Assembly (NCBI GenBank): GCA_963971535.1
Contig: OZ020593.1
Span: forward strand, 11,938,342-12,002,341
Direction: 5' to 3'
DNA from: Notolepis coatsorum
Lineage: Eukaryota > Chordata > Actinopteri > Aulopiformes > Paralepididae
DNA length: 64,000 bases
The notes under the pieces were generated by a model. The model did no database searches. It was not told the origin of the DNA and worked only from the letters and a program-made list of their open reading frames with translations. Every line of letters starts with the position of its first letter. Within the stretch, counting starts at the first letter, position 1. Positions 2,086-62,109 of this stretch are shown piece by piece. The position numbers and the translations under genes are program-made.

Positions 2086-2491
2086 TAGGGATGGGTACCT
2101 TTCACATTTGAACCGATACCGGTACCTGTGAATCGATACCGGTACCCAACGGTACCTTTTTTCGGTACTTTAGTCTCAAGAAATTTAATTTACTTACCTC
2201 AGTCGTAAAAAAAAAAATTCAAACTTCAAATAACTACAATTTCGACAGTTTTCGGCTTGTCATTGCTCCGACTGCTTTGTTGTTGAATCAAGTCAAATCC
2301 TAGGTAAGCATATATTGTGCGTGTGAACGTTGACATGAAAAGAAAAAAGTAAAAAATTAAAAAAAAGTAAAAAATAAAATTAATAAGATTTTTTTTTTTT
2401 TTTTTTGGTTTCTCACTTGATTCGATACTCGGTAGTACCGACGTGTTTCGGTTCGGTACCTCAAAAGTACCGAATTCGGTACCCATCCCTA
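2086..2491. mobile_element. hAT-type MITE, 406 bp, with 8-bp target duplication
   Basis: The ends are TAGGGATGGGTACC and its near-perfect inverse GGTACCCATCCCTA. It is flanked on both sides by the identical 8-bp direct repeat TGACTCAC (2078-2085 and 2492-2499). Eight-bp duplications and short TIRs are typical of the hAT superfamily. The interior is AT-rich with repeated GGTACC-like motifs and no coding capacity, so the element must be non-autonomous. Confidence 0.9.
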
Positions 2492-2680
2492 TGACTCACA
2501 CACATCCTGAAAAGGCCACAACTTCCCAACAAGAGATGATGTAAGTAGGGAACAACTCACACACTACAATCAAACTCAAATGCTGATCATCTTAAGACGT
2601 GTGTTGTGTTCCATAAAGCCAGGACCAGTAACAATACCCACATACATGACGTACTGTAACAATCTGAAATGGGCCTGTAC

Positions 2681-3580
2681 TAGGGTTGGGTACCGAACTC
2701 GTTACTTTTCGCCCCGGTACTACCGAATACTGATTCACGCTAGATCAATCGGTACCAAATTCTGGTACCAAATTCTGGTACCTTTACATGCTTAGTATAA
2801 GAGTGTAATTAGTGATGCACCGATGTGAAAATTGTGGCCGATACCGATAACCGATATTAATATTGCTGTTCTGGCCGATACCGATATTTACCCATGTTGA
2901 TATCTCTGTATAGAAAACACTTTTTTATGATAATCAAATAAAGAGCTATTTTCCAAAACGCATTTTTTATTTATTTTTTTATTTTGAAACTTATTTTCAG
3001 AAATTACTGATATTTTGAAACTATTTAAGGCCAAAACATGTAAAAATGAAAAAAAAATATTAAAAAATAAATATATATATATATATATTTTAACATCGGC
3101 CCATATCGGCCCTATCTTGATATCGGACCGATACCGATGTGTAAAAAAACTGCCATATCGGCCGATATTATATCGGCGGCCGATATATCGTGCATCACTA
3201 AGTGTAATATACTAGCCTTTTCCACAAATATATATATTACTGTCCCGTCTCTTGGGTCTTTAGAAAGACCAGACGAGGTCAGAGGGGTTTGATAGTATTT
3301 ACTGAGGATAACCAGATAATGTTGATATCTAAACACTTACATAATACATGATCATGCGATTTATTTGTGTGTTGCTTGCAACAATAAATAACAACATTTT
3401 CTAAATAAATAACAATGTTCAAATTGAGAAGTTTGGACAAATTTCTTGGACAACTGAAATAAAATAAAAAATTTGACAGAGAAAGTTAATAAGCACCGGA
3501 AAAGGTACCTTTGAATACCGATAACGATTTCCAGGAACTGGTACCGGTTCAAATGTGAACGGTACCCAACAACGACCCTG
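2681..3580. mobile_element. hAT-type MITE, 900 bp including a nested element
   Basis: It starts TAGGGTTGGGTACCG and ends GGTACCCAACAACGACCCTG. The flanks are GCCTGTAC (2673-2680) and GCCTGTGC (3581-3588), an 8-bp duplication with one mismatch. It resembles the 2,086 element in its TIR and GGTACC-rich interior. A second MITE (2,810-3,200) has inserted inside, so its own length was about 500 bp. Confidence 0.85.
2810..3200. mobile_element. hAT-type MITE, 391 bp, nested in another MITE
   Basis: The termini TAGTGATGCACCGAT and ATCGTGCATCACTA are inverted repeats. The flanks are a perfect 8-bp duplication, AGTGTAAT (2802-2809 and 3201-3208). The interior repeats GATACCGATA/TATCGG motifs and has no ORF. 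It is younger than the 2,681-3,580 element that contains it. Confidence 0.92.
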
Positions 3581-13546: not shown

Positions 13547-13780
13547 CAAGTATCAAGTACCGATGCGATCCGTTGCTTTCTCTATAGACTAGGCATAAAC
13601 CGGGAAAATCTACTCAAAGTCCATTGCGAAGCTCTCGGTCAAGTCATTTAAATTTTTTATTAAAGTAATTTTAGACATATCCGTAAGCGATGTGACATCA
13701 AACACTGCGATATTGGCCAAAACCCAAAAGTCATAACAAATCACTATTCTGAGTTGTAGGAGGGGGGGGGGGGGGGGGGC
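13547..13780. other. Unassigned interval with an open minus-strand frame
   Basis: The minus strand has an open stretch, roughly 13,610-13,745, with a protein-like composition (…ANIAVFDVTSLTDMSKITL…). I do not recognise it and see no clear splice sites. It may be a transposon-derived remnant or chance. A poly-G tract follows at 13,761-13,779. Confidence 0.25.
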
Positions 13781-13820
13781 ACCCACTGCCCACGAGACGA
13801 GGTGGAAACCAGGCTGCACT

Positions 13821-15372
13821 TGCCCACTGTACCAAGACATCAGAGACATATACTTCAACCTGCCCACTATACCAAGACATCAGAGACATATACTTCAACC
13901 TGCCCACTGTACCAAGACATCAGAGACATATACTTCAACCTGCCCACTATACCAAGACATCAGAGACATATACTTCAACCTGCCCACTATACCAAGACAT
14001 CAGAGACATATACTTCAACCTGCCTACTATACCAAGACATCAGAGACATATACTTCAACCTGCCCACTATACCAAGACACCAGAGACATATACTTCAACC
14101 TGCCTACTATACCAAGACATCAGAGACATATACTTCAACCTGCCCACTATACCAAGACATCAGAGACATATACTTCAACCTGCCCACTATACCAAGACAT
14201 CAGAGACATATACTTCAACCTGCCCACTATACCAAGACATCAGAGACTTATACTTCAACCTGCCCACTATACCAAGACACCAGAGACATATACTTCAACC
14301 TGCCCACTATACCAAGACACCAGAGACATATACTTCAACCTGCCCACTATACCAAGACATCAGAGACATATACTTCAACCTGCCCACTATACCAAGACAT
14401 CAGAGACATATACTTCAACCTGCCCACTATACCAAGACATCAGAGACATATACTTCAACCTGCCTACTATACCAAGACATCAGAGACATATACTTCAACC
14501 TGCCCAGTGCCCACTATACCAAGACATCAGAGATATATACTTCAACCTGCCCACTATACCAAGACATCAGACATATACTTCAACCTGCCTACTATACCAA
14601 GACATCAGAGACATATACTTCAACCTGCACTGCCCACTATACCAAGACATCAGAGACATATACTTCAACCTGCAGTGCCCACTATACCAAGACATCAGAG
14701 ATATATACTTCAACCTGCCCACTATACCAAGACATCAGAGACATATACTTCAACCTGCCCACTATACCAAGACATCAGACATATACTTCAACCTGCAGTG
14801 CCCACTATACCAAGACATCAGAGACATATACTTAGTGCCCACTATACCAAGACATCAGAGATATATACTTCAACCTGCCCACTATACCAAGACATCAGAG
14901 ACATATACTTCAACCTGCAGTGCCCACTATACCAAGACATCAGAGATATATACTTCAACCTGCCCACTATACCAAGACATCAGAGACATATACTTCAACC
15001 TGCCCACTATACCAAGACATCAGAGATATATACTTCAACCTGCCCACTATACCAAGACATCAGAGACATATACTTCAACCTGCAGTGCCCACTATACCAA
15101 GACATCAGAGATATATACTTCAACCTGCCCACTATACCAAGACATCAGAGACATATACTTCTACCTGCCCACTATACCAAGACATCAGAGACATATACTT
15201 CAACGTGTCCACTGTACCAAGACACCAGAGACATATACTTCAACCTGCCCACTGTACCAAGACACCAGAGACATATACTTCAACCTGCCCACTGTACCAA
15301 GACATCAGAGATATATACTTCAACGTGCCCACTGTACCAAGACACCAGAGACATATACTTCAACCTGCCCAC
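13821..15372. repeat. 40-bp minisatellite, main block (~39 units)
   Basis: The unit is CCAAGACATCAGAGACATAT plus ACTTCAACCTGCCCACTATA, repeated with few substitutions. Shortened and lengthened variants (AGTGCC insertions, GAG deletions) are common from about 14,500 on. Because 40 is not a multiple of 3 and no plus-strand frame contains a stop, a 537-codon frame with a 40-residue period results. It is not a gene. Confidence 0.96.
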
Positions 15373-16396
15373 TAAGGCTGAGCCCGAACATTCGAACGTT
15401 CGTTCGTTACGTTGACATTCGGACTTTAATTAATAGGTTCGAACGTTCGGTGAAAAAAAAAAAGAGGCAGACGCGCGACGTTGAGGCGATGTGAAGCGGC
15501 GCGTCCCCCGAGTGCGCTCGGCTCAACCAGTGTGGTCTCTGCCGGGCTGTAGCTGGATACTATTGTCTCAACCAATGCAATAGAACCATTTTGATTGACA
15601 GGCGATTCTGCCAATTACGTCACACCGCTTGCACCCGCCTCTGCTGTTACCACCAATCGGCAAGCGTTTATTTATTTTTTTTACTTCCGGCAATACATTT
15701 ATCTGCTTGCGAGACCGAGAAGCACAACAGAGTGAACAGACTCCGTAGCTCCCCGCCGAGGAAGGATCATTAATGAATACCAGCCTTTTTCGGCCATGGA
15801 GCGCGAACTTCATGGCGGGAGGTGGTTGCGTTGTAAACAACTCTGGCCGAGGGCGGACGGGCGGCAGGCGTGTTGGGAGCCCGGCGGCACCCCGCCGGTG
15901 TCTCTCTGTCGTCCCCCGTTCCGAGGTAGACGGTGGAAGGAGCCGAGGCGCGCGCCTCTCTCCTTCCCGTCGACCAAGAGTGAATACCTGTTATTGAACG
16001 TGGAACACTAACTATATAACGTTAATGCCACAAAACGAATGCATTTGTTTATCTAGCCCCTTACGTGACTGCGGTGTGCAAGGGCTATTGTTTATCATAA
16101 GTAGGAACTTTATGCAGTACTCAGTAGCTTGTTTATTTTCTTCTGAGTGCTTTGTTTAATTACATGTTTACATGAACAGCCACCACTGTAAACAACATGT
16201 TTTTTCACCAATAGATTATGCAATGCCGCCCTCCGTAGGATCTATAATACAAAAAAAAAAAAATTATATAAAAAAAGAAATGTAATAAAATTTCTTTTTT
16301 TATAAAAAAAATTACAAAAAACGAACGTTCGAACGTTCGTTCGATAAACCCTGGCGAATGTTCGAACCCTAAAAATAGGGTTCGGGCTCAGCCTTA
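15373..16396. mobile_element. hAT-type element, 1,024 bp, copy 1 inside the 40-bp array
   Basis: The ends TAAGGCTGAGCCCGAA and TTCGGGCTCAGCCTTA are flanked by identical CTGCCCAC (15,365-15,372 and 16,397-16,404), which is part of the array unit. Subterminal GAACGTTCG palindromes are present. The centre (15,750-15,975) is GC-rich and includes GAGGAAGGATCATTAA. Small frames exist but no transposase is recognised. Confidence 0.9.
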
Positions 16397-16644
16397 CTGC
16401 CCACTATACCAAGACATCAGAGACATATACTTCAACCTACCCACTGTACCAAGACATCAGAGACATATACTTCAACCTGCCCACTGTACCAAGACACCAG
16501 AGACATATACTTCAACCTGCCCCCTATACCAAGACATCAGAGACATATACTTCAACCTGCCCACTGTACCAAGACATCAGAGATATATACTTCAACGTGC
16601 CCACTGTACCAAGACACCAGAGACATATACTTCAACCTGCCCAC
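16397..16644. repeat. 40-bp minisatellite, middle block (~6 units)
   Basis: Six units lie between the two copies of the 1.02-kb element. The last two units before copy 2 match those before copy 1, including the ATATATACTTCAACGTGCCC variant. Confidence 0.93.
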
Positions 16645-17667
16645 TAAGGCTGAGCCCGAACATTCGAACGTTCGTTCGTTACGTTGACATTCGGACTTTA
16701 ATTAATAGGTTCGAACGTTCGGTGAAAAAAAAAAAGAGGCAGACGCGCGACGTTGAGGCGATGTGAAGCGGCGCGTCCCCCGAGTGCGCTCGGCTCAACC
16801 AGTGTGGTCTCTGCCGGGCTGTAGCTGGATACTATTGTCTCAACCAATGCAATAGAACCATTTTGATTGACAGGCGATTCTGCCAATTACGTCACACCGC
16901 TTGCACCCGCCTCTGCTGTTACCACCAATCGGCAAGCGTTTATTTATTTTTTTTACTTCCGGCAATACATTTATCTGCTTGCGAGACCGAGAAGCACAAC
17001 AGAGTGAACAGACTCCGTAGCTCCCCGCCGAGGAAGGATCATTAATGAATACCAGCCTTTTTCGGCCATGGAGCGCGAACTTCATGGCGGGAGGTGGTTG
17101 CGTTGTAAACAACTCTGGCCGAGGGCGGACGGGCGGCAGGCGTGTTGGGAGCCCGGCGGCACCCCGCCGGTGTCTCTCTGTCGTCCCCCGTTCCGAGGTA
17201 GACGGTGGAAGGAGCCGAGGCGCGCGCCTCTCTCCTTCCCGTCGACCAAGAGTGAATACCTGTTATTGAACGTGTAACACTAACTATATAACGTTAATGC
17301 CACAAAACGAATGCATTTGTTTATCTAGCCCCTTACGTGACTGCGGTGTGCAAGGGCTATTGTTTATCATAAGTAGGAACTTTATGCAGTACTCAGTAGC
17401 TTGTTTATTTTCTTCTGAGTGCTTTGTTTAATTACATGTTTACATGAACAGCCACCACTGTAAACAACATGTTTTTTCACCAATAGATTATGCAATGCCG
17501 CCCTCCGTAGGATCTATAATACAAAAAAAAAAATATATATAAAAAAAGAAATGTAATAAAATTTCTTTTTTTATAAAAAAAATTACAAAAAACGAACGTT
17601 CGAACGTTCGTTCGATAAACCCTGGCGAATGTTCGAACCCTAAAAATAGGGTTCGGGCTCAGCCTTA
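16645..17667. mobile_element. hAT-type element, 1,023 bp, copy 2
   Basis: It is essentially identical to copy 1 at an offset of 1,272 bp. I see one substitution near 17,275 (GTGTAACAC against GTGGAACAC) and a changed A/T run near 17,525. It has the same CTGCCCAC flanks. Copy 2 most likely arose by tandem duplication of element plus array. Confidence 0.92.
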
Positions 17668-18105
17668 CTGCCCACTATACCAAGACATCAGAGACATATA
17701 CTTCAACCTACCCACTGTACCAAGACATCAGAGACATATACTTCAACCTGCCCACTGTACCAAGACACCAGAGACATATACTTCAACCTGCCCCCTATAC
17801 CAAGACATCAGAGACATATACTTCAACCTGCCCACTGTACCAAGACACCAGAGACATATACTTCAACCTGCCCACTATACCAAGACATCAGAGACATATA
17901 CTTCAACCTGCCCACTGTACCAAGACACCAGAGACATATACTTCAACCTGCCCCCTATACCAAGACATCAGAGACATATACTTCAACCTGCCCACTATAC
18001 CAAGACATCAGAGACATATACTTCAACCTGCCCACTATACCAAGACATCAGAGACATATACTTCAACCTGCCCCCTATACCAAGACATCAGAGACATATA
18101 CTTCC
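17668..18105. repeat. 40-bp minisatellite, right block (~11 units)
   Basis: The first four units repeat the variant order of the middle block (CCTACCCACTG, CCTGCCCACTG, CCTGCCCCCTA). The array ends within ATACTTC, where the sequence continues as CCACAAATTGGCAAAC. Confidence 0.93.
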
Positions 18106-18244
18106 CACAAATTGGCAAACACCCAAAGAGACTTTAAAAACATGGCAAACAACAGAAAACTCCCATAACCTACTGGGAGAAATACAACAATGTGCAAACA
18201 GAGCAGCAAGATTTGTGAGCTGCTGTGACAAGAAATCCAACGGA

Positions 18245-18653
18245 ATACAACCACCATGAAGGCTGTCAATCATACGAGTATTCCAACCATGAAGGCTGTC
18301 AATCATACGAGTATTCCAACCATGAAGGCTGTCAATCATACGAGTATTCCAACCATGTCAAGGCTGTCAATCATACGAGTATTCCAACCATGAAGGCTGT
18401 CAATCATACGAGTATTCCAACCATGAAGGCTGTCAATCATACAAGTATTCCCAACCATGAATGCTGTCAATCATACGAGTATTCCCAACCATGAAGGCTG
18501 ACAATCATACGAGTATTCCAACCATGAAGGCTGTCAATCATACGAGTATTCCAACCATGAAGGCTGTCAATCATACGAGTATTCCAACCATGAAGGCTGT
18601 CAATCATACGAGTATTCCAACCATGAAGGCTGTCAATCATACGAGTATTCCCG
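18245..18653. repeat. 33-bp minisatellite
   Basis: About 12-13 units of CCAACCATGAAGGCTGTCAA plus TCATACGAGTATT, with 1-2 bp indels. A 33-bp period keeps frames open, giving Ser/Thr/His repeat frames on both strands that are artefacts. Confidence 0.95.
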
Positions 18654-18899
18654 CCCCATCTGTACTGATCTCTGTTTGATTGTTTTAACGCTGGCGTTGG
18701 CAATGTAAACGCATGTCAATAAAGCCCCTTTGAATTGAATTGAAATCGAGGTGGTCAAATTAAACGAAAAGGAGCCATTATTATTCTACATTAACTCACC
18801 TCTTATTTAGTGTTTTGAAGAAAGAAAACGTCCCACTTCAAAATCATGAAGAATATGTTAACATAAGTAACCAAACATTCTGGGAGATTGGTCAATGGG

Positions 18900-23477: not shown

Positions 23478-26283
23478 ACTCTGTCTCCTGCACCTCCTCT
23501 CTCTCTCCTCCTGCACCTCCTCTCTCACTCCTCCTGCACCTCCTCTCTCTCTCCTCCTGCACCTCCTCTCTCTCTCCTCCTGCACCTCCTCTCTCTCACT
23601 CCTCTCTCTCCTCTCTCCTCCTGCACCTCCTCTCTCTCTCCTCCCCTCCTGCACCTCCTCTCTCTCTCCTCCTGCACCTCCTCTCTCTCTCTCCTCCTGC
23701 ACCTCCTCTCTCTCCTCCTGCACCTCCTCTCTCTCTCTCCTCCTGCACCTCCTCTCTCTCTCCTCCTGCACCTCCTCTCTCTCCTCCTGCACCTCCTCTC
23801 TCTCTCTCCTCCTGCACCTCCTCTCTCTCTCATCATGCACCTCCTCTCTCTCCTCCTGCACCTCCTCTCTCTCTCCTCCTGCACCTCCTCTCTCTCTTCC
23901 TGCACCTCCTCTCTCTCTCCTCCTGCACCTCCTCTCTCTCTCTCTCTTGAGTCACCTCCTCTCTCTCTCCTCCTGCACCTCCTCTCTCTCTCTCTCTTGA
24001 GTCACCTCCTCTCTCTCTCCTCCTGCACCTCCCCTCTCTCTCCTCCTGCACCTCCTCTATCTCTCTCTTGAGTCACCTCCTCTCTCTCTCCTCCTGCACC
24101 TCCTCTCTCTCTCCTCCTGCACCTCCCCTCTCTCTCCTCCTGCACCTCCTCTCTCTCTTCCTGCACCTCCTCTCTCTCTCCTCCTGCACCTCCTCTCTCT
24201 CTCTCTCTCTTGAGTCACCTCCTCTCTCTCTCCTCCTGCACCTCCTCTCTCTCTCCTCCTGCACCTCCTCTCTCTCTCTCTCTCTTGAGTCACCTCCTCT
24301 CTCTCCTCCTCCTGCACCTCCTCTCTCTCTCTCTCTCTTGAGTCACCTCCCCTCTCTCTCCTCCTGCACCTCCTCTCTCTCCTCCTGCACCTCCCCTCTC
24401 TCTCCTCCTGCACCTCCTCTATCTCTCTCTTGAGTCACCTCCTCTCTCTCTCCTCCTGCACCTCCTCTCTCTCTTCCTGCACCTCCCCTCTCTCTCCTCC
24501 TGCACCTCCTCTATCTCTCTCTTGAGTCACCTCCTCTCTCCTCCTGCACCTCCTCTCTCTCTCCTCCTGCACCTCCTCTATCTCTCTCTTGAGTCACCTC
24601 CTCTCTCTCTCCTCCTGCACCTCCTCTCTCTCCTCCTGCACCTCCTCTATCTCTCTCTTGAGTCACCTCCTCTCTCTCTCCTCCTGCACCTCCTCTCTCT
24701 CTCCTCCTGCACCTCCCCTCTCTCTCCTCCTGCACCTCCTCTATCTCTCTCTTGAGTCACCTCCTCTCTCTCTCCTCCTGCACCTCCTCTCTCTCCTCCT
24801 GCACCTCCCCTCTCTCTCCTCCTGCACCTCCTCTCTCACTCCTCTCTCACTCCTCTCTCCTCCTGCACCTCCTCTCTCACTCCTCTCTCCTCCTGCACCT
24901 CCTCTCTCACTCCTCTCTCACTCCTCTCTCACTCCTCTCTCCTCCTGCACCTCCTCTCACTCCTCTATCTCCTGCACCTCCCCTCTCTCTCCTCCTGCAC
25001 CTCCCCTCTCTCTCCTCCTGCACCTCCTCTCTCACTCCTCTCTCACTCCTCTCTCACTCCTCTCTCCTCCTGCACCTCCTCTCTCTCCTGCACCTCCCCT
25101 CTCTCTCCTCCTGCACCTCCCCTCTCTCTCCTCCTGCACCTCCTCTCTCACTCCTCTCTCACTCCTCTCTCACTCCTCTCTCCTCCTGCACCTCCTCTCA
25201 CTCCTCTCTCTCCTGCACCTCCCCTCTCTCTCCTCCTGCACCTCCCCTCTCTCTCCTCCTGCACCTCCTCTATCTCTCTCTTGAGTCACCTCCTCTCTCT
25301 CTCCTCTCTCTCCTCCTGCACCTCCTCTCTCTCTCCTCCTGCACCTCCTCTCTCTCCTCCTGCACCTCCCCTCTCTCTCCTCCTGCACCTCCCCTCTCTC
25401 TCCTCCTGCACCTCCTCTCTCACTCCTCTCTCACTCCTCTCTCACTCCTCTCTCCTCCTGCACCTCCTCTCACTCCTCTCTCTCCTGCACCTCCCCTCTC
25501 TCTCCTCCTGCACCTCCCCTCTCTCTCCTCCTGCACCTCCTCTATCTCTCTCTTGAGTCACCTCCTCTCTCTCTCCTCCTGCACCTCCCCTCTCTCTCCT
25601 CCTGCACCTCCCCTCTCTCTCCTCCTGCACCTCCTCTATCTCTCTCTTGAGTCACCTCCTCTCTCCTCCTGCACCTCCTCTCTCTCTCCTCCTGCACCTC
25701 CCCTCTCTCTCCTCCTGCACCTCCTCTATCTCTCTCTTGAGTCACCTCCTCTCTCTCTCCTCCTGCACCTCCTCTCTCTCCTCCTGCACCTCCCCTCTCT
25801 CTCCTCCTGCACCTCCTCTCTCACTCCTCTCTCACTCCTCTCTCCTCCTGCACCTCCTCTCTCACTCCTCTCTCCTCCTGCACCTCCTCTCTCACTCCTC
25901 TCTCACTCCTCTCTCACTCCTCTCTCCTCCTGCACCTCCTCTCACTCCTCTCTCTCCTGCACCTCCCCTCTCTCTCCTCCTGCACCTCCCCTCTCTCTCC
26001 TCCTGCACCTCCTCTCTCACTCCTCTCTCACTCCTCTCTCACTCCTCTCTCCTCCTGCACCTCCTCTCACTCCTCTCTCTCCTGCACCTCCCCTCTCTCT
26101 CCTCCTGCACCTCCCCTCTCTCTCCTCCTGCACCTCCTCTCTCACTCCTCTCTCACTCCTCTCTCACTCCTCTCTCCTCCTGCACCTCCTCTCACTCCTC
26201 TCTCTCCTGCACCTCCCCTCTCTCTCCTCCTGCACCTCCTCTCTCACTCCTCTCTCACTCCTCTCTCACTCCTCCTCTCTCGA
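23478..26283. repeat. 2.8-kb polypyrimidine minisatellite
   Basis: It is built from three short words: TCCTCCTGCACCTCC, (CT)n runs, and ACTCCTCTCTC, with TTGAGTCACCTCC interspersed. Higher-order blocks of about 270-300 bp repeat between 24,840 and 26,270. The plus strand is almost all C/T, so triplex (H-DNA) formation is plausible. TGAGTCA occurs 15 times in the array plus once just left of it (23,469). The frames, up to 531 codons, are artefacts. Confidence 0.96.
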
Positions 26284-27767: not shown

Positions 27768-27936
27768 TAGGGCTGGGCGATATGACGATATTATATAAAT
27801 ATCGGGTACAGTTCATTAACGATACACTTTTTCAACGTATCGTGGATATCGTGATGTTTTGCCCAAGAGGATTGTGTCGCGTCAATCTGTCCACACGTTA
27901 CTCGTTCATATCTCAGCCCGTGCTGAGATATGCCCA

Positions 27937-27968
27937 TTCCGCGGTCTGTTAATAAAGTTTTCAATCAG
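27937..27968 (+). mobile_element. LINE-A 3' terminus, minimal
   Basis: It holds GTCTGTTAATAAAGTTTTCA only, the last ~30 bp of the family. Confidence 0.55.
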
Positions 27969-28261
27969 ACAGATGTATGGAAAGGCTTTTATTATAACAT
28001 TCGTTGTAGTAAAATCATTATGCCTCATTTAGTCATCCTGTTGAGCACTGGTCTCCTACTCGACGGCCGCGGGGAGCTAACGTTAGTAGCTTTGTTGTTG
28101 TTCAGCACACAGGACATTCAGGAAGTAAAAAACTAGGAGCTTGCCGATTGGTGCTAAGAACAGCAGGGCGGGTGCAAGCGCTGTGACGTAATTGGCAGAC
28201 TCGACTGTCAATCAAAATTATATGTTTCCGTCAGAATGAATGAGTGAAGACTTTGTTAAAG

Positions 28262-28365
28262 GGTTGCAGAATGGGTACAATACAGTACAGGAGGATGAAG
28301 ACCAGAAAAAGACTTTCGACTTTTTTACATAAGGGTCCTCCATTTTCAATTCATCAAAACATTTA
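28262..28365 (-). mobile_element. LINE-A 3' UTR fragment
   Basis: The plus strand shows the reverse of the family terminus (GCAGAATGGGTACAATACAG) through TCCATTTTCAATTCATC. It is diverged from the family (CAGAAAAAGACTTTCGAC). Confidence 0.8.
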
Positions 28366-28404
28366 GAGACATACATATATACAGTAGTTTCATTAAAATG
28401 CTAT

Positions 28405-28560
28405 TGATTGATTGATTGATTGATTGATTTAAAACTTTATTAACATATTGCAGAATGGGTACAGTACAGCTCAATACATACAATTGTTAAGGGGATGCAG
28501 ACCAGAGAAAGACTTTAGTCTTGTTTACATCAGGGTCCCCCATTTTCAATTCATCATATT
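28405..28560 (-). mobile_element. LINE-A 3' UTR fragment
   Basis: It begins with a (TTGA)n tail (ATTGATTGATTGATT) followed by AAAACTTTATTAACATATTG, and runs to TTTTCAATTCATC. The tail is intact, so it is a distinct insertion from the neighbouring copy. Confidence 0.88.
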
Positions 28561-28824
28561 TCATATCTAAATCATATAATATCTCATTGCTAAATATATG
28601 CAATATATAATCTAATAATCTAAATCTAATATATAATATAAAAATGCTAAATGCATGGGTATTTTATTTTGTCTTTAATGTTAGCTTGCAAAATCAAATA
28701 CTGTCTTGGTAAGCCTCATAATGAATTGTTTGGGGTAAAAAAGAAAAACATCGTGATGTGTATCGTGTATCGCCGAAAGGTCAGAAAATATCGTGATATC
28801 ATATTTAGGCCATATCGCCCAGCC

Positions 28825-28856
<32 letters not shown>

Positions 28857-44208: not shown

Positions 44209-46495
44209 GGTGAGTTGCAGGTGACGCTCATCACAGACAAGCTGGATGTAGCCAATTACTTAAACATTTTCTTCACAAACATAGCCACAACACTGGTAAA
44301 CAAACTACCCTCCCACTCAGGGCTTTATGGGGTAGAACACATAGTAGCTTACTACAAAAACCTAGGGGTCCGCAAGGACGACTTCAAGCTGGAAATGGTA
44401 ACAACAGATGAGGTACTCAATAAACTGAGCGCCCTCCAACCTAACAAGGCCACTGGCCATGACAACATCCCCTCCAAATTCCTCAGAGACTCAGCAGCCG
44501 CCATCACACCAATCATCACACACATAATAAACCTCTCCATAAAACAGGGACACGTCCCCAAGGACTTCAAAATTGCGAGGGTGACCCCTCTGCACAAAAA
44601 GGGCAGCAAATTAGACCCAGGCAACTACCGCCCTGTTTCTATTCTCACCTCCATCTCGAAAGTCATGGAAAAAATAGTCTACGAACAGGTCGAAAAGTAC
44701 CTAGCGGAAAAAAATCTAATCTACGAATTCCAATCTGGCTTCAGAACATCCCACTCCACTGACACATGCCTTCTCTATTTGAATGACCACATCAAACAAG
44801 AGGTGGACGCAGGCAAATACTGCGGCATGGTCATGCTGGACCTACAAAAGGCCTTTGACACGGTCAATCACTCCATTCTGATTGACAAGCTAAAAGCAAT
44901 TGGTTTTGATAGTCTATCAGTGAGCTGGATGCAATCCTACCTTGAGGGGAGGGAACAGATGGTGGAGGTAAACGGTACCCTATCCCCCCCCCTCACAGTG
45001 AGCTGTGGTGTTCCACAAGGAAGCATACTAGGACCGCTACTGTTCCTAATTTATGCAAATGACATGTCGTCAGCTTGTGACTGCAACTTGTTCCTGTTTG
45101 CGGACGACTCAGCCCTGCTGGTCTCTGACAAGAACAAGTTACAGGTTGAAAAAACCCTCAGCTCGGAACTAGGCAGAATCTGCATATGGCTCGCTGATAA
45201 CAAACTATCATTACACATGGGCAAAACAGAGTCCATTCTATTCGGTTCAAATAACAAACTCAGCAAGACCGACGGCTTCTCAGTTACAGTGGGTGACAAT
45301 ATTGTCACAAGGAAAGATGAAATTACCTACCTGGGTTCCATCCTAGAGGCTAATCTCTCCTGTGACAAAATGGCATCCAATGTAATAAAAAAAGTCAACC
45401 AACGAACTCGATTCTTGTACCGGATCTCCTCTTTGGTAAACAAGAACACCCTGAAGACTCTGGCAGGAGCACTCATTCAGGGGTACTACGACTATGCTTG
45501 CACCTCATGGTACCAAAGCACCTCAAAGGCGCTAAAAACAAAATTACAAACATCTCAAAACAAACTGGTCAGACTACTGCTTGACCTTACTCCTAGAACC
45601 CACCTCACCCCTGCCCACTTTGACAACCTAGGATGGCTTAGAGTAGACGACAGAGTACAACAACTTGCAATGGGCCTGGTCTACAAGATACACTACACGA
45701 CCAAGGTACCCATGTACATGTCAAAATACTTCCCAAAGGTCAGTGAATACCACGATCACAACACCAGAGGGAGCTCCACAAATCATGTCAAACCCAGATT
45801 CGGCTCAAATAAGGGACTAAACACGTTTCGCAATTATGCCACATCAATGTGGAACGCCCTACCCAAAGCTGTAAAGGAATGTGGATCACTACCCACTTTC
45901 AAAACCTCTCTCAAGGGACACCTACGGGAGACTGCAATTCAACACTGGCCCCTGTAAATATCCTAACCCAACCCCCTCCAATGTACAGTCATTTACCTAG
46001 TATGGTTTTGTCAATAGTTCAATGTACAATTGTGTTTGTTTGTACAGTGTCTCCTCCCCCCCCCCCTCAATGTACAGTGTTACTTGTTTATACAGTGTGC
46101 CCCCCCCCCCCCCCCCCAACCACCTCCAATGTAAATTACCCAGTATGGTTGTCAATATCCCAATGTACCCAACCCCCCCCACCCAACCTCCTCCAATGTA
46201 CAGTTTCTACGTCAAATGTATATACTCCCTTTTCTTGACTCCTTCTGTATCACAAACAGTACTGTATTTGCAAATCTGGTATGTCATAAATGTATAGATG
46301 TAGCAGTACTGACTATCTGTATGTCATGTATGTCATATATGTCTATATGAATTGAAAATGGGGGACCCTGATGGAAACAAGACAAACGTCTTTCTCAGGT
46401 CTGCATCCCCTTAACAATTGTATGTATTGAGCCGTACTGTATTGTACCCATTCTGCAATCTGTTAAATAAAGTTTTCATTCATTCATTCATTCAC
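44209..46495 (+). mobile_element. LINE-A, 5'-truncated but with intact RT frame
   Basis: A non-LTR retrotransposon fragment: the 3' two-thirds of ORF2, a 540-bp 3' UTR, and an (ATTC)n tail. The endonuclease region is missing. The 5' edge abuts a LINE-C tail at about 44,209. The 3' UTR (45,958-46,480) is the source family of the LINE-A tails at 6.4, 20.8, 22.4, 28.3, 28.4, 33.2, 36.1, 37.5 and 38.2/39.5 kb. Confidence 0.93.
44215..45957 (+). CDS. LINE reverse transcriptase, partial ORF2 (580 codons)
   Basis: The product is a target-primed reverse transcriptase of the Jockey-superfamily (CR1/L2/Rex1-like) group. It acts on its own RNA at chromosomal target DNA. Visible RT blocks are PGNYRPVSILTSISKVMEKI (~residue 133), MLDLQKAFDTVNHSIL (~207), CGVPQGSILGPLLFLIYAND (~263) and the catalytic FADDSALL (~295). 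The C-terminal part includes TYLGSILEANLS and MWNALPKAVKE, the usual LINE ending. The frame opens at a TTG and has no true initiator, because the 5' part (endonuclease) is missing. It contains no stop or frameshift, which suggests recent insertion. It is probably immobile alone. The exact clade was not resolved. Confidence 0.93.
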   Translation: MQVTLITDKLDVANYLNIFFTNIATTLVNKLPSHSGLYGVEHIVAYYKNLGVRKDDFKLEMVTTDEVLNKLSALQPNKATGHDNIPSKFLRDSAAAITPIITHIINLSIKQGHVPKDFKIARVTPLHKKGSKLDPGNYRPVSILTSISKVMEKIVYEQVEKYLAEKNLIYEFQSGFRTSHSTDTCLLYLNDHIKQEVDAGKYCGMVMLDLQKAFDTVNHSILIDKLKAIGFDSLSVSWMQSYLEGREQMVEVNGTLSPPLTVSCGVPQGSILGPLLFLIYANDMSSACDCNLFLFADDSALLVSDKNKLQVEKTLSSELGRICIWLADNKLSLHMGKTESILFGSNNKLSKTDGFSVTVGDNIVTRKDEITYLGSILEANLSCDKMASNVIKKVNQRTRFLYRISSLVNKNTLKTLAGALIQGYYDYACTSWYQSTSKALKTKLQTSQNKLVRLLLDLTPRTHLTPAHFDNLGWLRVDDRVQQLAMGLVYKIHYTTKVPMYMSKYFPKVSEYHDHNTRGSSTNHVKPRFGSNKGLNTFRNYATSMWNALPKAVKECGSLPTFKTSLKGHLRETAIQHWPL

Positions 46496-61094: not shown

Positions 61095-62109
61095 AGGTGC
61101 TGTAAGTGGTATTTCTTTGTTAAGATAATGTGTTATTAAATAGGTCTACATTCAGACAGCCATCACTGATATAGAGTGTCTGGTCAGTAACATGGGTCTC
61201 CCAGTCCCTCCACTCTGCAGTAAACAGCCATCACTGATATAGAGTGTCTGGAGAGTAACATGGGTCTCCCAGTCCCTCCACTCTGCAGTAAACACAAAAT
61301 ACATTTCCTGGTATCCCTTACCACTTTATCCAATCAGGAGAGAGAACTCTAGATATTATGTATGACTTATTTCAAGAAATCTTGCCAAGCCAAATTTGCT
61401 TACTTGCACTGGTCGATTATTTTAATTGTATCAAGCACACATTTGCTTTAAAACTAGTTTTTATTTCTTATTATTGTCAAGGCCATTTTTGCAGTGTGTA
61501 ATTCTCTCTCCTGATTAGATAAAGTGGGAACAGGATACCAGAAAATGTATTTTGTGTTTACTGCAGAGCGGAGGGACTGGAAGACCCATGTTACTGACCA
61601 GACACTCTATATCAGTGATGGCTGTTTACTGCAGAGCAGGAGGGACTGGGAGACCCATGTTACTGACCAGACACTCTATATCAGTGATGGCTGTTTACTG
61701 CAGAGCAGGAGCAACTGGGAGACCCATGTTACTGACCAGACACTCTATATCAGTGATGGCTGTTTACTGCAGAGTGGAGGGACTGGGAGACCCATGTTAC
61801 TGACCAGACACTCTATATCAGTGATGGCTGTTTACTGCAGAGTGGAGGGACTGGGAGACCCATGTTACTGACCAGACACTCTATATCAGTGATGGCTGTT
61901 TACTGCAGAGTGGAGGGACTGAGAGACCCATGTTACTGACCAGACACTCTATATCAGTGATGGCTGTTTACTGCAGAGTGGAGGGACTGGGAGACCCATG
62001 TTACTGACAAGACACTCTATATAAGTGATGGCTGTTGGAGTGTAGAGCTATTATTTTAACATGTAGATCATTTATTTTAACAAACAAAAAAACACCACTT
62101 ACAGCACCT
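61095..62109. mobile_element. Foldback TIR element, ~1 kb, TTAA-type
   Basis: The ends AGGTGCTGTAAGTGGTATTT and a matching inverse ending CCACTTACAGCACCT are flanked by TTAA (61,091-61,094) and CTAA (62,110-62,113). Homology between the arms extends more than 250 bp inward. Each arm carries a 68-bp repeat in mirror orientation: two units on the left (61,152-61,293) and about seven on the right (61,558-62,036). No ORF is convincing. A TTAA site suggests piggyBac or Kolobok mobilisation. Confidence 0.82.
61558..62036. repeat. 68-bp minisatellite, right arm of foldback element
   Basis: About seven units containing GACCAGACACTCTATATCAG and TGATGGCTGTTTACTGCAGA. Variants AGCAGG/AGTGG mark sub-blocks. 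Confidence 0.95.

Follow-up and report, generated by a model that had tools for sequence, protein, structure and literature searches.

An ORF2-derived minisatellite of variable unit number in a LINE family of Notolepis coatsorum

Tandem repeats built from open reading frame 2 (ORF2) coding sequence of long interspersed nuclear elements (LINEs) have been described in several animals, and the examples listed in a review include PROsat of Phodopus roborovskii, Pvc20 of the harbour seal and the chicken HinfI/CR1 repeat, with the stated conclusion that any part of a transposable element (TE) can serve as satellite substrate (PMC9659126). Among human minisatellites, one survey reports 7,276 that derive from TEs by local duplication of a unit (23% of those examined; 185 clusters multilocus) (PMC3389668), and 2,663 TE-derived ones are given as associated with Alu (PMC9659126). 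Here we describe a related case in Notolepis coatsorum, in a 64,000-nucleotide stretch of DNA (hereafter the window; C27:11938342-12002341 of the 3.42-Gb source genome, which was the genome searched), where positions 13780-18747 are the 3' end of a truncated LINE that carries a minisatellite made from its own ORF2. The repeats hold LINE ORF2 coding sequence, as do PROsat, Pvc20 and HinfI/CR1; whereas the review lists those as satellites, the array here has a minisatellite unit of 40 bp that lies entirely within ORF2; at many loci the unit still occupies its place in the LINE, and forms with one unit or few units can be seen. Like the human TE-derived minisatellites in the survey's account, it has a unit that is part of a TE (10–100 bp, arranged head to tail and present once in the TE), but here one junction is common to many copies of one LINE family.

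A literature search by title found no work on this 40-bp unit or LINE segment. We regard the locus as a clear, well-resolved case of a known kind, not an unprecedented one; an earlier sequence-only reading of the window had called a satellite seeded by retrotransposon coding sequence unusual, which is too strong given the LINE-ORF2 satellites listed in the review (PMC9659126). What is worth keeping is the ladder of unit numbers and a second breakpoint. The onset of minisatellites is poorly understood, and according to the survey the mechanisms postulated for them account for only 6% of those derived from TEs (PMC3389668). In this single genome the unexpanded segment, copies with two, three and four units and long arrays stand in comparable flanks, alongside another breakpoint, used in a different element, and, in one array, a hAT-type insertion followed by a block duplication that puts the array's history in order, which makes array birth versus growth testable.

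Anatomy of the array-bearing LINE copy

The interval is 4,968 bp long and is made up of a LINE left flank (41 bp), three blocks of the 40-bp array (1,552, 248 and 437 bp), a hAT-type element present twice (1,024 and 1,023 bp), the ORF2 C-terminus (148 bp), a 33-bp array (399 bp) and the 3' tail (96 bp), as follows.

13780..13820, + strand: LINE ORF2 left flank (..THCPRDEVETRLH); LINE homology from about 13781, adjoining a poly-G run
13821..15372, + strand: 40-bp array block 1, 38 units (Tandem Repeats Finder, TRF, and unit count)
15365..15372, + strand: left target site duplication (TSD) CTGCCCAC of the hAT-type insert, read from the sequence
15373..16396, + strand: non-autonomous hAT-type element, copy 1, 1,024 bp, with perfect 17-bp terminal inverted repeats (TIRs) TAAGGCTGAGCCCGAAC
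16397..16644, + strand: 40-bp array block 2, 6 units, beginning with the right TSD CTGCCCAC at 16397-16404
16645..17667, + strand: hAT-type element, copy 2, interpreted from comparison with copy 1 as the product of a tandem block duplication
17668..18104, + strand: 40-bp array block 3, 11 units, the last unit in frame into PQIGKHPKRL
18105..18252, + strand: ORF2 C-terminus beyond the 40-bp array, PQIGKHPKRL and then LLGEIQQCANRAARFVSCCDKKSNGIQPP in another frame
18253..18651, + strand: 33-bp array, 12 units, starting 4 bp ahead of the ORF2 stop codon (18257-18259)
18652..18747, + strand: LINE 3' tail, AATAAAG and then TTGAATTGAATTGAA

The sequence-only reading had seen a LINE 3' remnant with two separate tandem arrays of 40 and 33 bp, and TRF and the unit counts bear this out. 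TRF called the 40-bp array at 13821-15374, 16397-16645 and 17668-18104, and counting by the core TACCAAGACA gave 55 units (2,237 bp in total) inside ORF2, one fewer than the approximately 56 first proposed. These fall into 16 kinds, the commonest being TGCCCACTATACCAAGACATCAGAGACATATACTTCAACC (18/55). Each unit consists of 36 nt of ORF2 coding for CPLYQDIRDIYF plus the preceding AACC, so that the head-to-tail joint reads ACTTC|AACC. A 27-mer of the unit (≤3 mismatches) matched 55 times in the window and not once in 100 shuffles, indicating that the pattern is not due to chance. Both flanking reading frames named in that reading, DEVETRLH on the left and PQIGKHPKRL on the right (the right frame reading CPLYQDIRDIYFPQIGKHPKRL), are present in the window. 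The idea that the two arrays had inflated the remnant to about 5 kb holds only in part: the arrays are real, but two hAT-type copies that went unmentioned make up 2,047 of the 4,968 bp (41%), lying inside the 40-bp array.

With a 40-bp unit the reading frame shifts at every repeat, and the three plus-strand frames of block 1 hold 1 stop in 1,550 codons. Since 40 is no multiple of 3, a coding role for the array is unlikely, and we put forward no function for it in the host. Searched against Pfam, the array's reading frame and the short piece of C-terminus gave weak matches only, all below cut-off, and no Rfam match in the window exceeded its gathering score. Among viral contigs 19 stretches fit a pattern, of which 0/19 was confirmed as a relative, and a single match in the GTDB contigs was rejected as chance similarity within a bacterial gene. 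That gene is presumably the one for elongation factor Ts.

Single-unit relatives and genome-wide spread

A query with the left flank returned 302 candidates, of which 40 were scored and 30 loci were cut out. A single unit between both flanks was found in 21 of the 30 (L023, in which the core matches again at a distance of 612 bp, being taken as single-unit), and at least two units in the other 9, the window included. The typical single-unit copy reads DEVETKLHFLTTCPLYQDIRDIYFPQIAN (by eye from the DNA) and is colinear with both window flanks; relative to such copies the window copy is without 11 nt between H and C. The right flank gave 1,603 first-look candidates; 40 were scored, and all 39 of these other than the window copy were 90–92% identical. 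Judged from the single-unit copies, the 40-bp unit and its two flanks form a single colinear stretch of the LINE, in agreement with the sequence-only reading, which had suggested looking for left flank, one unit and right flank in that order.

An exact 24-mer across the 40-bp junction matched 2,210 times in the genome (control 0), the first 100 matches listed falling at 18 loci. The LINE left flank followed by first unit and junction had 97 exact matches, and the junction followed by last unit and LINE right flank had 68 (control 0 for both). Such exact-match counts miss diverged arrays, and the window array's own start and end are absent from both lists. Starts and ends formed 34 pairs within 8 kb, many starts and ends having no exact partner at that distance; 22/34 were exact multiples of 40 bp. 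In 32/34 the pair lay within 2,015 bp, with unit numbers that begin 2, 2, 2, 3, 3, 3, 4, 4, 4, 4, 5 and rise to 50, a range from which the two longest pairs (5.2 and 5.7 kb) were excluded as doubtful. Because the junction follows the left flank at 97 places and 32 arrays span 2–50 units, the 40-bp array is a variable-number array of the LINE family and not of the window copy alone.

We then read 24 distinct array loci, of which 15 lie in this LINE family and 9 are a 36-bp version of the repeat in a different element (L051 and L054, with a broken-off second unit, stand outside this count). The sequence-only reading had named an array independent of the LINE as the finding that would speak against it, and the loci read bear this out only in part. 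We also asked how well the loci fit a free satellite that overlaps the LINE by chance, the LINE having inserted beside an existing array. Some array loci do have no LINE flank on one side of the array (L006, L007, L008, L014-L016, L020 and L041), yet the 21 LINE copies with exactly one unit between the same flanks already refute this account, since they make the unit LINE sequence, and LINE lies on both sides of the 32 arrays within 2,015 bp; we give it next to no credence. At L014-L016 the units are 47 bp long (by eye, the 40-bp unit plus a 7-bp insertion), and the LINE copies stop within an array unit at CAGAGA or TATACAGAGA, followed directly by (GA)n. These three look like copies of one composite, given that downstream sequence is common to at least L015 and L016.

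One birth or several

The founding 40-bp duplication would have arisen early in the LINE family and been passed on by retrotransposition or gene conversion, after which the array at each locus would have lengthened or shortened through replication slippage and unequal exchange, in the usual manner of minisatellites. We prefer this combination of an inherited duplication and later local growth, to which we assign a probability of roughly 0.65; recurrent birth comes second.

The sequence-only reading had proposed that the repeats expanded in place. For the 33-bp array (TRF 18253-18651) this stands: the array includes the ORF2 stop codon, is preceded by the C-terminal piece LLGEIQQCANRAARFVSCCDKKSNGIQPP with its stop, which is not in the PQIGKHPKRL frame, and has a junction with 8 exact matches genome-wide, all at the window locus, so that it was most likely born in this copy and expanded there. 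It may be likened to the hypervariable 3' untranslated region repeats that the review describes for the retrotransposon Ogre and PisTR-A (PMC9659126), with the difference that exact matches to the 33-bp junction are confined to a single locus. Extending strictly local expansion to the 40-bp array suits the 55 units here, which exceed all 32 measured arrays, but the identical junction stands after the left flank at 97 places and occurs 2,210 times in all. This contradicts a local origin of the founding duplication unless the breakpoint recurs, although growth in length can be local; expansion of the window copy alone is thus a very improbable account.

Recurrent birth would mean that the CPLYQDIRDIYF segment readily duplicates in tandem and that the same 40-bp breakpoint arose independently in several LINE subfamilies. 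We hold this to be unlikely, yet several results argue for it and weigh against a single inherited duplication. A tree was built from trimmed LINE flanks (14 array and 21 single-unit copies, 35 rows in all), with L008 (which has no left flank), duplicate loci, L051, L054 and the loci in the non-LINE element outside it. One clade of array copies was rejected by the approximately unbiased (AU) test (p = 0.019; 0.027 for nine 40-bp loci), the best tree required 6 changes of the array label (6–9 in bootstraps), and array and single-unit copies mix in flank types (L003 with L030, L041 by L033, L007 by L023). Such non-monophyly fits repeated birth, array loss or conversion between copies. Also weighing against an inherited duplication, 38/97 array starts are on contigs with numbers higher than 49, so that some may be redundant assembly copies; adjoining units in the window are no more alike than shuffled ones (1,221/5,000 shuffles as low); a founding 45-bp form using ACTTC microhomology was seen neither in the window nor in 14 other array loci; and the numbers of unit variants common to at least two loci (P = 0.06) and to at least three (P = 0.11) were not significant. 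Local homogenisation, as a separate matter, is not shown by the likeness of neighbouring units.

The same tree also speaks against recurrence: only 2/30 inner branches are well supported (the rows are short) and these force just 1 change, and the array label is clustered, with 1/500 shuffles giving as few changes. Unit variants are common to different loci, A6C occurring in the window, L008 and L009 and A30G in L004, L007 and L020, both absent from the 21 single copies, while A9G is found in five array loci and one single copy. Under a simple random model (3:1 transition weight, four measures), the excess of variant sharing between array loci had P = 0.0036 and the largest number of sharing loci P = 0.016. 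Moreover, microhomology at the 40-bp breakpoint is scant (one C, judged by eye), so that exact recurrence needs a special cause.

A further point for recurrence is that the same segment expanded again with another breakpoint. In 9/20 loci examined (L042, L043, L045, L046, L047, L050, L052, L053 and L055) the same ORF2 stretch forms a 36-bp unit (34 bp in places) with the junction GACAT|AACAACC, in 2 to approximately 35 units. Its host is a non-LINE element holding the ORF2 piece, with left and right parts similar across loci. The exact junction had 39 matches, at about 28 places by reading of the list. Since breakpoints and contexts both differ, the two versions suggest that a single ORF2 segment gave rise to tandem repeats on two or more independent occasions. 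A more doubtful proposal again is that the CPLYQDIRDIYF-coding stretch is a sequence-encoded minisatellite birthplace, which used the same breakpoint repeatedly in separate subfamilies and another in an unrelated transposon; if true, one genome would offer many parallel trials from which to read the first step of minisatellite birth. As an observation on location, 9 of the approximately 28 places with the 36-bp junction lie at 104.2–107.4 Mb of contig C35, within its last 3.6 Mb (contig end 107.8 Mb).

The hAT-type insert, the LINE 3' end and other features of the window

The element interrupting the 40-bp array has short TIRs (17 bp) and the 8-bp TSD CTGCCCAC; hAT elements generate TSDs of 8 bp. 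It sits within one array unit, so it inserted after the array existed. The second copy lies one block (1,272 bp) downstream of the first and differs from it by 2 mismatches and 1 gap, and exact identity extends 107 bp to the left and 180 bp to the right. It is probably a tandem block duplication, which unequal exchange between array units or a similar event would produce; an assembly error may also be the source of the duplicated block. The hAT-type family is dispersed in the genome (1,849 candidates; 38 further scored matches at 94–99%). The insert (15373-16396) also holds GGAAGGATCATTA, which we take to recall the 3' end of 18S rRNA, followed by GC-rich sequence like an internal transcribed spacer; Rfam gave three weak matches on the insert, all below the gathering score. 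A further TIR-bearing, hAT-like element lies at 27769-28830 of the window (ends GGGCTGGGCGATAT.. and ..ATATCGCCCAGCCC), sharing about 100 bp with the 1-kb insert of the array (84%) and containing pieces 73–88% like the 3' end of a LINE at 44215-46480.

Copies of the array LINE are dispersed and have a common 3' end with starts at differing points, that is, variable 5' truncation. The 3' end in the window is AATAAAG plus (TTGAA)n, and the tail was recognised in 15/44 rows examined and in none of the other 29, which include non-LINE loci and loci cut early. Kibi is the name of a LINE with a (GA)n/(TC)n target. In 12/15 tailed copies GA runs occur within the next 60 bp after the tail (counted with no genome control), the window copy having none, which by analogy recalls microsatellite-targeting LINEs, some of which are described in the literature (PMC4640811). 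At L008 a fragment of RVT_1 (E 2.6e-24) at 2463-3182 lies directly past the tail and (GA)n, its kinship to the array LINE family being only putative; the array copy and the reverse transcriptase fragment give the impression of neighbouring insertions by two LINEs into a single GA repeat. The C-terminal open reading frame of L058 matched zf-RVT (E 0.076) and, better, the unrelated Hairy_orange (E 0.0017), both below cut-off. L1-clade families are reported to be diverse in zebrafish (PMC4746887).

As a candidate LINE TSD we considered CGAGGTGG, present in the left flank and the 3' flank; it looked plausible, 8 bp being reached by 104/3,000 random pairs, but was rejected since single-unit copies show it to be LINE sequence. 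No other TSD was seen for the truncated copy in the window, the only copy inspected. A second LINE in the window, at 44215-45957, has a 580-aa open reading frame with RVT_1 (E 2e-35) and then an (ATTC)n tail, and its 3' end does not resemble the one in the array LINE.

Tandem repeats with periods of at least 10 make up 17.5% of the 64-kb window, which holds 42 merged tandem-repeat loci of period 15–130, counting the blocks of the 40-bp array itself; arrays are therefore common in this stretch. A high density of tandem repeats is also reported for codfishes (PMC5894186). At 23485-26281 lies a 2.8-kb CT-rich array with mixed periods of 23, 46 and 71 bp and long open frames, and at 61156-61294 and 61555-62036 two arrays about 260 bp apart share the same 68-bp unit in opposite orientation (94–99% alike).

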